Shown here in pieces: positions 49,687 to 62,571 of a stretch of 64,000 nt of DNA; position 1 is the first letter of the stretch; each line of letters starts with the position of its first letter. The notes beneath the pieces were generated by a model that was not told where the DNA came from, made no database searches, and worked only from the letters and a program-made list of their open reading frames with translations. The translations under genes and the position numbers were made by a program. Source of the stretch: Gammaproteobacteria bacterium (GTDB lineage Bacteria; Pseudomonadota; Gammaproteobacteria; S012-40); NCBI GenBank assembly GCA_029884425.1, contig JAOUHV010000001.1:1-64000 (forward strand). Direction: 5' to 3'.

Positions 49687-50412
49687 CTACAAATCAAGCA
49701 TGATTTCCGCTTCCTCGGCGCTGGGCTCAAAACCACTGTGTTCGTAGTGATTAAAAATGGCTTCGACAATCTCCTTCGGGTCATCCAGTAGCTGAATCAA
49801 TTGCATGTCTTCGGGATTGATCATGCCCTCAGCAATCAGGCTGTGCTCAAACCAGCTCAGCAAGCCCTGCCAAAAGGGTTTATTCACTAGAATGATCGGA
49901 ATGCGGCGGGATTTGCGGGTTTGCACCAGGGTGAGAATTTCCGCCAGCTCGTCCAGGGTACCAAACCCGCCAGGCATGACCACGTAGGCAGCGGCGTACT
50001 TGACGAACATCACCTTGCGCGAAAAAAAGTGACGGAAGCTCAGGGAAATATCCTGATAGGGATTGCCCACCTGCTCTTTGGGCAGTTGGATGTTCAGGCC
50101 GATGCTGGGCGACTTACCCTCAAACGCACCTTTGTTGGCGGCCTCCATGATGCCGGGGCCGCCACCACTGACAACGCTAAAACCAGCGTCAGATAAAGCG
50201 CGGGCGATGTCCTCGGTTTGTTTATAATAGGGGTGGTCGACCGGGGTTCGGGCCGAGCCAAAAATACTTACCGAAGGCCGGATTTGCGCCATGCGCTCAA
50301 AGCCTTCGACGAATTCGGCCATGATTTGAAAAATTTTCCACGACTCACGGGATAACATCGTATCGCTTGCCGGAGCCATCCCCGGATGTGACAACTTGTG
50401 CTGTGACGTCAT
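49687..50412 (-). CDS. LOG family protein (nucleotide 5'-monophosphate phosphoribohydrolase)
   Basis: A 241-residue Rossmann-like protein of the TIGR00730/LOG family, often misannotated as lysine decarboxylase. The signature PGGFGTLDELAEILTLVQTRK is present, with SVSIFGSART and VVSGGGPGIMEAANKGAFE earlier. Family members hydrolyse nucleoside monophosphates to base and ribose-5-phosphate. The start at 50412 lies 28 bp from the divergent polA ATG, so promoters of the two must overlap or lie within coding DNA. Confidence 0.9.
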   Translation of the reverse strand: MTSQHKLSHPGMAPASDTMLSRESWKIFQIMAEFVEGFERMAQIRPSVSIFGSARTPVDHPYYKQTEDIARALSDAGFSVVSGGGPGIMEAANKGAFEGKSPSIGLNIQLPKEQVGNPYQDISLSFRHFFSRKVMFVKYAAAYVVMPGGFGTLDELAEILTLVQTRKSRRIPIILVNKPFWQGLLSWFEHSLIAEGMINPEDMQLIQLLDDPKEIVEAIFNHYEHSGFEPSAEEAEIMLDL

Positions 50413-50440
50413 ATGTTTTCCTAAAATTTTGCTAGGTGCT

Positions 50441-53176
50441 ATGAACAATAAACCCCTGATACTCGTTGATGGCTCGTCCTATCTATACCGCGCCTTCCAT
50501 GCCATGCCCAATTTCAGCAACTCCAAGGGCGAGCCCACTGGCGCCATCTACGGTGTCATCAACATGATGAAGCGCTTGCTGCGCGACTACGACACCGACC
50601 GAGTCATTATGGTTTTCGACGCGAAAGGCAAAACCTTTCGCGATGAAATGTATCCAGAATACAAAGCCAATCGGCCATCGATGCCCGACGAGCTGCGCGG
50701 CCAGATCGAACCCATTCACCAGATCCTGCAGGCGATGGGGTTTCCCATCCTGATGATCGAAGGGGTCGAGGCTGACGATGTAATCGGTACCCTCGCCGCC
50801 CACGCCAGCCAGGCCGGTCAGCGCACCATCATTTCCACCGGCGATAAGGACATGGCGCAGTTGGTCAACGAGCACGTGCAACTGGTCAACACCATGACCG
50901 AAACCCACATGGACATCGACGGCGTGGTGGAAAAATTCGGCGTGCCGCCACAGCTGATTGTCGACTACCTGGCATTGATTGGAGACAAGGTCGACAACAT
51001 CCCCGGCGTCCCCAGTTGCGGTCCCAAGACCGCAGTGAAGTGGTTGACCACTTACGGCTCACTGCAGGGCGTGATTGACCATGCAGATGAAATTGGCGGC
51101 AAAGTGGGTGAAAAATTACGCGAGACCCTGCCGCAGTTGCCCCTCTCCTATCAACTGGCGACCATCAAATGCGACGTGCCGCTGGAGGCTTCTCTCGACA
51201 GCCTGCGCATGTCGACACCGAACAATGCGGTACTGGCTGACCAGTTCCAGCGTTGGGAATTCCGCACCTGGTTGCGCGAGGTCAAACAGGCCGGTACCGT
51301 CCAGCAGGAAATGGATTTGGGCATGCCCGAGATTGAAGAGGAGTTGCCTGCCTCCTCGCCTGCGACGGTAAAGCGCAACTACCAGATCATTACCGAGCAA
51401 GCCCAGCTGGACGATTGGCTGCAACGACTAAGTACCGCCACACTGTTCGCCTTTGACACCGAGACCACCAGCCTGGAGTACATGCAGGCACAGATCGTCG
51501 GCGTGTCTTTTGCCATTGAGCCGGGCGAAGCGGCCTATGTGCCCCTGGCCCACGACTACGACGGCGCGCCTGCGCAACTGGATCGTGCCAGCGTATTGGC
51601 CCAGCTCAAGCCGCTGCTGGAAAACCCGGCACAGACCAAGATCGGCCAAAACCTGAAATACGACATGAACGTGTTGGGCAACTACGGCATTGCCCTGCGC
51701 GGCATTGCGTTTGACACCATGCTTGAGTCCTACGTGCTCGACTCTGTGGGTCGTCACGACATGGATTCGCTGGCGGAAAAGCATCTGGGCGAAACCACCA
51801 TTCACTTTGAGGATATCGCCGGCAAGGGCGCAAAGCAGAAAACCTTCAACCAGATCGAGGTGGCGGTGGCCGGTGAATATGCCGCCGAGGACGCCGACAT
51901 CACCCTGCGCTTGCACCGGGCGTTGTGGCCACAGCTCGGCAAGACCCAAACCCTGCCCAAGGTGTTCAACGAGATTGAATTGCCGCTGGTGACGGTGCTG
52001 TCCCGACTGGAGCGCAATGGAGTGTTGGTGGATGCTAACTTACTGGCTATCCAAAGTGGTGAACTAACCCAACGGCTGGCCGAGGTTGAGCAACAGGCCT
52101 ACGATCTGGCCGACGGTGCCTTCAACCTCAATTCGCCCAAGCAGATTCAGGAGATCCTGTTCGAAAAACAGGGCATCCCGGTCATCAAAAAAACCCCGGG
52201 CGGGCAGCCCTCCACTGCCGAGCCGGTACTGCAGGAACTGGCGGAAAACTATCCGTTGCCTCGTCTGATTCTGGAGCACCGCAGTCTGGCCAAGCTCAAG
52301 TCGACCTACACCGACAAACTGCCGCAGATGATAGACGCGAACACCGGTCGAGTGCATACCTCCTACCATCAGGCGGTGGCGGCCACCGGGCGTTTGTCCT
52401 CTTCTGATCCTAACCTGCAGAACATTCCGGTGCGTACCCAGGAAGGGCGGCGGATTCGTCAGGCGTTTATTGCCCTGGCGGGTTTCAAAGTGGTGGCGGC
52501 GGATTACTCGCAAATCGAATTGCGCATCATGGCGCACCTCTCCGGCGATGCCGGTCTGGTGAAAGCGTTCCAGTTGGGTGAGGACATTCACCGCGCTACC
52601 GCCGCAGAAATCTTCGGCGTCGAATTGGCTGATGTGAGCGCTGACCAACGTCGCAACGCCAAGGCGATCAACTTTGGTCTGATTTATGGCATGTCCGCGT
52701 TTGGCCTGTCACGCCAGCTCGGTATTGAGCGCGGCGAGGCCCAGCAGTACATGAATCACTACTTTGAGCGTTACCCCGGTGTGGCGGATTACATGGAGCG
52801 CATCCGCAATCAGGCGCGTGACCAGGGTTACGTCGAGACCCTGTTTGGTCGTCGGCTTTACCTGCCGGAGATTCGTTCGTCCAACGCCCAGTTACGCCAG
52901 TACGCCGAGCGCACCGCTATCAACGCTCCCATGCAGGGTACGGCGGCAGACATCATCAAAAAGGCAATGATTGCCCTGCACCAGTGGATTGGGGATGACA
53001 ACCAGGACGTGCGCATGATCATGCAGGTGCATGACGAACTGGTGTTTGAGGTGGCGGAAGGTGAGCTAACGCGAATTAACGGCGAGATCCGCCGGATCAT
53101 GGAAGCGGCGGCCAGCCTGGATGTGCCGCTGGAAGTGGACGTGGGGGTGGGCAATAACTGGGACGAGGCACACTAG
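50441..53176 (+). CDS. polA: DNA polymerase I
   Basis: A 911-residue polymerase. The N-terminal 5'-3' exonuclease begins with PLILVDGSSYLYRAFHAMP and has EADDVIGTLA. The proofreading domain is intact with FAFDTETTSL (catalytic Asp and Glu) and YAAEDADITLRL. The polymerase domain has DYSQIELRIMAHLSGD, RRNAKAINFGLIYGMSAFGL and MQVHDELVFEV. It fills gaps in Okazaki fragment processing and repair. The ATG at 50441 is chosen from homology; the frame is open to 50396. Confidence 0.97.
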   Translation: MNNKPLILVDGSSYLYRAFHAMPNFSNSKGEPTGAIYGVINMMKRLLRDYDTDRVIMVFDAKGKTFRDEMYPEYKANRPSMPDELRGQIEPIHQILQAMGFPILMIEGVEADDVIGTLAAHASQAGQRTIISTGDKDMAQLVNEHVQLVNTMTETHMDIDGVVEKFGVPPQLIVDYLALIGDKVDNIPGVPSCGPKTAVKWLTTYGSLQGVIDHADEIGGKVGEKLRETLPQLPLSYQLATIKCDVPLEASLDSLRMSTPNNAVLADQFQRWEFRTWLREVKQAGTVQQEMDLGMPEIEEELPASSPATVKRNYQIITEQAQLDDWLQRLSTATLFAFDTETTSLEYMQAQIVGVSFAIEPGEAAYVPLAHDYDGAPAQLDRASVLAQLKPLLENPAQTKIGQNLKYDMNVLGNYGIALRGIAFDTMLESYVLDSVGRHDMDSLAEKHLGETTIHFEDIAGKGAKQKTFNQIEVAVAGEYAAEDADITLRLHRALWPQLGKTQTLPKVFNEIELPLVTVLSRLERNGVLVDANLLAIQSGELTQRLAEVEQQAYDLADGAFNLNSPKQIQEILFEKQGIPVIKKTPGGQPSTAEPVLQELAENYPLPRLILEHRSLAKLKSTYTDKLPQMIDANTGRVHTSYHQAVAATGRLSSSDPNLQNIPVRTQEGRRIRQAFIALAGFKVVAADYSQIELRIMAHLSGDAGLVKAFQLGEDIHRATAAEIFGVELADVSADQRRNAKAINFGLIYGMSAFGLSRQLGIERGEAQQYMNHYFERYPGVADYMERIRNQARDQGYVETLFGRRLYLPEIRSSNAQLRQYAERTAINAPMQGTAADIIKKAMIALHQWIGDDNQDVRMIMQVHDELVFEVAEGELTRINGEIRRIMEAAASLDVPLEVDVGVGNNWDEAH

Positions 53177-53210
53177 CCATAGATGAAGCTAAAAAAATTT
53201 TCAGAATGCT

Positions 53211-53238
53211 GAAACTTTTTCTATTGGTGTCCCTCTAA
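53211..53238 (+). promoter_or_regulatory. Candidate sigma-E/AlgU-type promoter after polA
   Basis: GAAACTT at 53211-53217 and TCTAA at 53234-53238 are separated by 16 bp, close to the envelope-stress sigma consensus (GGAACTT, 16 bp, TCTRA). It lies 35 bp past the polA stop and directly upstream of the hairpin-rich sRNA candidate. The Pseudomonas sRNA ErsA at this same locus is known to be AlgU-dependent. Confidence 0.55.
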
Positions 53239-53244
53239 CTTTGT

Positions 53245-53360
53245 ACGAGCTCCCAGAATCGCCTGTTTGCCCCTCCCTCGAACAGGCACACCGATTCCCC
53301 AGAGTCGGTATGGCTCCCAACGGCCCCGGAACCCCCTCTCTCCCTCCGGGGCCATTTCTT
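53245..53360 (+). ncRNA. Candidate small RNA in the spf (Spot 42) / ersA locus
   Basis: The polA-engB gap has no ORF but three ordered inverted repeats: GCCTGTT/AACAGGC (53261-53287) with a C-rich 13-nt loop; ACCGA/TCGGT (53290-53309) with a CCCC-containing loop; and a perfect 9-bp GGCCCCGGA/TCCGGGGCC stem (53322-53353) followed by ATTTCTTTT, an intrinsic terminator. The single-stranded C/U-rich loops could pair with Shine-Dalgarno sequences. Position and promoter resemble ErsA of Pseudomonas and Spot 42 of enterics. The transcription start is estimated from the candidate promoter. Confidence 0.65.
53322..53360 (+). terminator. Intrinsic terminator of the candidate sRNA
   Basis: A perfect 9-bp GC stem (53322-53330 with 53345-53353) with a 14-nt pyrimidine-rich loop is followed by ATTTCTTTT. 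It abuts the stop codon of the convergent engB. Confidence 0.75.
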
Positions 53361-53361
53361 T

Positions 53362-53988
53362 TCAGGTGGTTTCCAACGGCGGCAAATCCAGCCAGGTACA
53401 GAGTTTGGCCAGCACCGGCTCTAATCCAACCGCATTGAGCGACGAAAACAGCTGCACTTCATGATCAACTTTCCATTTCTGCAGTTCCTTGCGGACTTTC
53501 TGCAATTCGTTGCTGGCAGCGCCACGGCTGAGTTTGTCGGATTTGGTCAGCAGGACATGCACCGGGGTTTTGGTGGCCTCGCACCAGTCCAGCATGATTT
53601 GGTCGTAATCGCGCATGGCGTGGCGCACGTCCATGACCAGTACCAGTCCCTTGAGGCTGGCGCGCTGGCGAAAATAACCTTCCATCAGATTTCGCCAGTG
53701 GTCCTTTACTTCGAACGGAACCTTGGCAAAGCCGTATCCGGGCAGGTCGACCAGCCGGCGCTGTTCGTCCAGGGAGAAGAAAATGATTTGCTGGGTACGG
53801 CCCGGTGTTTTACTGGTGCGAGCCAGTGAATTCTGCCCGGTGATGGTATTTACGGCGCTGGATTTGCCGGCATTGGAGCGCCCGGCAAATCCCACTTCCA
53901 GACCGTTGTCCGCAGGCAATTGACTTATGGCATTCGCCGCCATGGTGAAAAAGGCGCGGCGGAGCGCGGGATGACGTAATTCGGCCAC
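53362..53988 (-). CDS. engB: Ribosome biogenesis GTP-binding protein EngB (YihA/YsxC)
   Basis: A 208-residue GTPase needed for large-subunit assembly and cell division. P-loop GRSNAGKSSAVNTI near residue 33, switch II DLPGYGFAKV, and LTKSDKLSRG for guanine recognition. EngB commonly lies next to polA with an sRNA gene between, as here. It is convergent with polA and 3 bp downstream of the cyclic-nucleotide-binding gene. Confidence 0.95.
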   Translation of the reverse strand: MAELRHPALRRAFFTMAANAISQLPADNGLEVGFAGRSNAGKSSAVNTITGQNSLARTSKTPGRTQQIIFFSLDEQRRLVDLPGYGFAKVPFEVKDHWRNLMEGYFRQRASLKGLVLVMDVRHAMRDYDQIMLDWCEATKTPVHVLLTKSDKLSRGAASNELQKVRKELQKWKVDHEVQLFSSLNAVGLEPVLAKLCTWLDLPPLETT

Positions 53989-60458: not shown

Positions 60459-60565
60459 GAAATTGTCTCGTAATAAACGCGTGAAATCGGAAAAAGCCCA
60501 CCATTATAACCATCGCAGGCTAAAAGCAAAGTACCCTGATGGGGCATTTTGTGGTACTTTTGCGT

Positions 60566-62571
<2,006 letters not shown>

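Follow-up and report, generated by a model that had tools for sequence, protein, structure and literature searches.

We describe a gene for a small regulatory RNA in the gap between polA and engB of a gammaproteobacterial genome, at positions 53245-53362 (+) of the 64,000-nt stretch of DNA that was analysed (hereafter the window). It is a real and conserved sRNA gene, of the kind with C-rich, anti-Shine-Dalgarno-like loops, and it scores below the Rfam thresholds. We assign a probability of roughly 0.7 to the reading that it encodes a trans-acting sRNA, transcribed from a sigma-E promoter, that represses translation through pairing of its loops. Within this reading, sigma-E is probably what drives the sRNA, and the most likely mode of action, by analogy, is that of sX13 and alpha-r14. 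A large group of Gammaproteobacteria beyond the enterics and pseudomonads would thereby gain a predicted envelope-stress sRNA, mostly unrecognised by Rfam, and the anti-hemB family would become tied to sigma-E and to the locus of ErsA. The corresponding prediction is that RpoE induces anti-hemB-type RNAs and that these repress translation by imitating the ribosome's anti-Shine-Dalgarno sequence.

The polA-engB gap is 185 nt long, with the polA stop at 53176 (+) and the convergent engB ending at 53362 (-); the true start of polA is probably an inner ATG rather than the listed TTG. A preliminary description, made from the letters alone, had proposed for this gap a GAAACTT/TCTAA promoter with 16-nt spacing followed by three hairpins with C/U-rich loops, the last being a perfect GC terminator with a T-rich end, and every one of these parts was found in place (Table 1). 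Transcription is expected, from the sequence, to start near 53244-53246. The minimum free energy of the segment 53244-53362 is -47 kcal/mol; 200 dinucleotide shuffles gave -29.1 +/- 3.2 (z -5.57), none of them folding as well. The U-tail of the terminator is broken by one C. A terminator scan with a loop limit of 8 did not report hairpin 3, presumably because its 14-nt loop exceeds that limit. The possible outer helix around hairpins 1 and 2 was found in the window alone and was not seen in the gaps of relatives, several of which carry a separate 5′ hairpin (GAGTAGGCGCAA..CTACTC).

Table 1. Features of the polA-engB region, in window coordinates.
Feature	Position	Strand	Basis
polA, 5′ neighbour	50396-53176	+	ORF and translation; polymerase matched in relatives
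-35 element GAAACTT, sigma-E/AlgU-type	53211-53217	+	sequence; motif in relatives and before rpoE
-10 element TCTAA, 16 nt past the -35	53234-53238	+	sequence
predicted sRNA, about 118 nt	53245-53362	+	fold z -5.57; leave-one-out covariance model
possible outer helix around hairpins 1 and 2, GAGCU (53247-53251) / GGCUC (53312-53316)	53247-53316	+	fold only
hairpin 1, 9 bp	53261-53287	+	fold; covarying stem, near-invariant loop in 55 relatives
hairpin 1 loop, 9 nt, CCCCUCCCU, anti-Shine-Dalgarno-like	53270-53278	+	sequence, fold
hairpin 2, apical CCCA	53290-53309	+	fold; compensatory changes
conserved UCCCCAGAG, containing the hairpin 2 apex	53296-53304	+	sequence
hairpin 3 / intrinsic terminator, perfect GC stem, 9 bp	53322-53353	+	fold; conserved in relatives
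terminator loop, 14 nt, C/U-rich, containing CCCCCUCUCUCCC	53331-53344	+	sequence, fold
U-rich tail AUUUCUUUU, reaching the stop codon of engB	53354-53362	+	sequence
engB/yihA GTPase gene, 3′ neighbour, convergent	53362-53988	-	ORF; adjoins the sRNA in most relatives

Because a DNA similarity search matched almost nothing but the ends of polA, structure models were used to follow the element across genomes. Gaps from the same family, despite low overall identity, have in common two hairpins, one with the loop ..CCCUCCCU and one with ..CCCAGAG.., as well as a terminator. When eight relatives were aligned with MAFFT, the three helices were supported, with 92% of cells paired and 17 double-sided compensatory cells against 7.5 +/- 2.0 after shuffling, the values for slid controls being far lower. 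The covariance model derived from this alignment (R1) found matches in 11 of the 13 genomes of the window's family and in 131 of 369 sampled Gammaproteobacteria genomes; the element also occurs in genomes labelled Steroidobacteraceae, Woeseiaceae, Chromatiales, Ectothiorhodospiraceae, Spiribacter, Sedimenticola, Piscirickettsiaceae and Methylothermaceae. In an alignment of 55 matches, which leans towards the structure of the model because it was fitted to it, 97% of cells pair, double-sided changes number 172 against 41 +/- 6.4 in shuffles, and 19 of 20 pairs show compensation; the unfitted eight-row alignment agrees. All six modelled pairs of hairpin 2 carry compensatory changes, with 99.4% of cells paired, the CCUCCC(U) loop of hairpin 1 is near-invariant across the 55 relatives, and the terminator hairpin is kept. 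A leave-one-out model, built from 16 relatives with the window excluded, matched the window at 53263-53362 with 57.4 bits (E 1.1e-11), and this was the only strong match in the whole genome (E 5e-10).

The 3′ end of engB is the site of most matches, which polA usually flanks on the opposite side; at loci with polA at a distance of more than 0.7 kb (L018, L048, L043), the element remains by engB. In a polA tree, whose root is arbitrary and whose deep support is moderate, the named carriers of the element share one half with the window's family and with Chromatiales-type, Steroidobacteraceae and methanotroph lineages, and Pseudomonas (ErsA) and the enterics with Photobacterium (Spot 42) fall in the opposite half. 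More than one family copy is present at L019, L129, L133 and L135. Three genomes of family f22 (G033, G180, G287; L138-L140) each have three copies of the RNA, one of them beside engB, and the sigma-E motif found at other loci was not found at these f22 loci. Two records, L074 (a metagenome-assembled genome labelled Klebsiella pneumoniae) and L086 (Pantoea), have a polA that places outside the enterics, that of L086 within Pseudomonas; both are probably mislabelled.

What would switch this gene on? The strict promoter motif GA(A)ACT-N15-18-TCNNA occurs just twice in the 64 kb of the window, counting both strands. It is found upstream of the element in 31 of 55 relatives, compared with 0.8% in shuffles, and stands 45-68 nt before hairpin 1 with one exception at 89. 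A looser motif, which also admits TCTAT and GAACC, raises the count to 45/55 against 2.8% of control windows from the same loci; as it was composed after inspecting the misses of the strict motif, 31/55 is the cleaner figure. Against a sigma-E assignment, the window's promoter (GAAACTT / CTCTAA) differs from GGAACTT/GTCTGA. The window's genome encodes one RpoE above the family cut-off, followed by ORFs that resemble, by eye, an anti-sigma factor and RseC. Directly before the rpoE start of this genome lies GAACTA-N16-TCTAT, with the same spacing as at the sRNA promoter; of nine rpoE loci inspected, six have a motif of that type. A sigma-E-type promoter and a cognate RpoE, as a place in the sigma-E regulon would require, are both found in this genome, which also encodes an Hfq above cut-off. 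At the sequence level, sigma-E control of the sRNA is well supported, if unproven. In these respects the preliminary description has held up: the fold, the covariation and the leave-one-out match speak for a real sRNA gene, the frequency of the promoter in relatives (45/55) for the sigma-E/AlgU type that it had suggested, and the hairpins and promoter, whose absence from relatives that keep polA-engB it had named as grounds for abandoning the idea, are conserved there.

To which known RNAs is the element closest? An Rfam scan of the window gave nothing at threshold for it. The anti-hemB model (RF02837) reached 23.2 bits (E 0.0011; gathering cut-off 49.5) and the alpha-r14 model (RF02344) 26.7 bits (E 0.0015; threshold 58.8), matches that an Rfam scan of a longer stretch did not list. 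The anti-hemB cut-off is passed by the sibling L090 (50.7 bits) and by the relatives L018, L043, L137, L144 and L145, and many more relatives match below it; in all, 20 of the 369 sampled genomes pass this cut-off, as against the 131 with an R1 match. By such chained similarity the window RNA may be grouped with anti-hemB, of which it is not a member under the family's own rule. Its nearest kin are anti-hemB by sequence and structure, and alpha-r14/cuckoo and the Xanthomonas RNA sX13 by anatomy.

The anti-hemB RNA (Burkholderia RNA 7; ncS04 of B. cenocepacia) has a hairpin with a CCUCCCU loop, a second hairpin and a GC terminator, and the window RNA shows the same parts in the same order. The window differs in the loop of hairpin 2, which is C-rich, and in its C/U-rich terminator loop. 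No function for anti-hemB was found in the literature consulted; ncS04 is expressed in biofilms (PMC5688073). In the case of sX13, which lies next to polA and has three stem-loops with C-rich loops, repression requires these loops and G-rich motifs near the starts of its targets, and Hfq is dispensable (PMC3771888). Compared by description, the window RNA shares the location next to polA, the three stem-loops and the C-rich loops, whereas the loops of sX13 are CCCC/CCCC/CCCCC. The alpha-r14 RNAs keep an anti-Shine-Dalgarno loop on stems that diverge (PMC10746234; PMC3927594), an arrangement like that of the window, but the promoter of one of them, NfeR1, is sigma-70-type (PMC10746234). Alpha-r14 is recognised by three identical CCUCCUCCC loops; in the window the loops differ, being CCUCCC(U) in the first hairpin, CCCA/CCCC in the second and, in the terminator, a C/U loop containing CCCCCUCUCUCCC. 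The double-hairpin RNAs of Burkholderia carry the reverse complement of the ribosome site and were named for inhibiting the growth of E. coli (PMC5688073). This family (Betaproteobacteria toxic small RNA, RF02278) has two hairpins with such CU-rich loops as well; its RNAs are shorter and its model did not match the window, and a weak match (26.3 bits) was obtained in the relative L024. The Rfam 6C model, with 26 bits on the window under a cut-off of 47, was set aside as a likeness of C-rich loops.

A model of how the RNA might act can be drawn from these features. The 16S anti-Shine-Dalgarno sequence is CCUCC, and the loop of hairpin 1, which comes near to it, would be the part under selection, with stems that drift under compensation. 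Two hairpins and an intrinsic terminator would make up the RNA, the stems keeping the C-rich loops open. Once the envelope is stressed, RpoE would transcribe the RNA, and its loops would then pair with GGAGG or GGGAGG at or near start codons. Such pairing would block ribosome binding and lower the output of a set of mRNAs. The combination of a fixed CCUCCC loop with drifting paired stems, as in alpha-r14, suggests loop pairing with GGGAGG/GGAGG, and the sequence of the loops fits the earlier suggestion that they are suited to such ribosome sites. That repression would be broad and stress-induced, as the preliminary description also proposed, is an inference.

In the window's genome 14 ATG codons are preceded by AGGGAGG and 7 by the reversed control pattern; most of the 14 are not real starts. 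Five ORFs of at least 60 codons have the AGGGAGG motif, and besides petB and two TRL-like lipoproteins they comprise one membrane protein and one protein predicted to be secreted; canonical AAGGAGG sites likewise precede some exported proteins, and the lipoprotein AGGGAGG site is not conserved in the relative G003. The AGGGAGG list would suit an envelope regulator, but it is small and no target is claimed. The hfq mRNA, considered as a target by comparison with sX13, gained no support, since its leaders have ordinary AAGGAG-type sites only and no long G-run. Three TRL-like lipoprotein genes are found in tandem at G000:C67:1843-2691 (-) (L205), and are in tandem in G003 too; two have GAGGGAGG-type ribosome sites.

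Could the element be ErsA or Spot 42 itself, drifted in sequence? The preliminary description had noted that these two RNAs occupy the polA-engB gap elsewhere, and indeed their Rfam models matched their own RNAs there in other genera, which served as positive control. The covariance search that it had proposed went against kinship: the ErsA (Pseudomon-1, RF01719) and Spot 42 (RF00021) models had no match in the window even at E = 10. A whole-length model (R2) gave weak matches of 13-26 bits exactly at the ErsA and Spot 42 loci, as drift would predict. However, a model of hairpins 1 and 2 without the terminator (R3; window and L070 among its sequences), which recovers independent family members, found nothing at the loci of ErsA, of Spot 42 or of other methanotrophs; the R2 likeness is therefore attributed to the terminator, and homology on that ground was rejected. 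ErsA is sigma-22 dependent (PMC7565897), and the window has in common with it the locus and an AlgU-type promoter, whereas hairpins 1 and 2 are not shared. With Spot 42 the common feature is the locus; no sigma-E-type promoter was found at the Spot 42 loci of Edwardsiella and Enterobacter (L045, L079). With a different hairpin layout in addition, we regard a drifted copy of either gene as improbable: what stands of the proposed analogy is a parallel in function with ErsA, which occupies the same locus, and kinship with ErsA or Spot 42 is not supported.

That the element is merely the polA terminator with extra hairpins, and not a separate RNA with its own promoter, would agree with its place 3′ of polA and with its end in a GC hairpin and a U-rich tail. 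Such a terminator would not account for two covarying hairpins with a near-fixed loop ahead of it, for a promoter kept at a nearly constant distance, or for an element that stays by engB when polA lies at a distance (L018, L048), and we consider this explanation very improbable. The C/U loops might also act as a sponge, titrating free 30S subunits or an RNA-binding protein, be it Hfq or another, which would fit a loop that mimics the anti-Shine-Dalgarno sequence with no single target, and the lack of conservation of the sole target site checked in a relative. CsrA sites carry GGA and Hfq/Crc sites A-rich repeats. The loops of the window contain neither, and mRNAs are the actual or predicted targets of the look-alikes sX13 and alpha-r14, so that we hold a sponge to be unlikely and favour the antisense repressor.

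A broader reading, which we put forward tentatively and consider rather doubtful, is that the polA-engB gap held one ancient sigma-E-controlled sRNA gene directed against ribosome sites, and that the window's family, anti-hemB, sX13, ErsA and Spot 42 are its descendants, diverged beyond recognition. It is suggested because the strict motif is present in 42 of the 54 polA-engB gaps considered, whatever the RNA inside, compared with 1.7% of control windows, a count in which many gaps are from Pseudomonas and are not independent. In three Methylococcales gaps (L008, L011, L017) hairpins with CCCCC loops, unrecognised by R3, come after a sigma-E-type promoter, and these gaps apparently hold further C-loop RNAs. 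A Porticoccaceae polA-engB gap (L010:3436-3907) contains two tandem RNA-like units, each with a sigma-E-type promoter and weak R2 matches. Elsewhere in the window, a TPP riboswitch was identified at 60562-60665 (+), directly before an ORF at 60670, with a score of 67.3 bits, above the Rfam cut-off.
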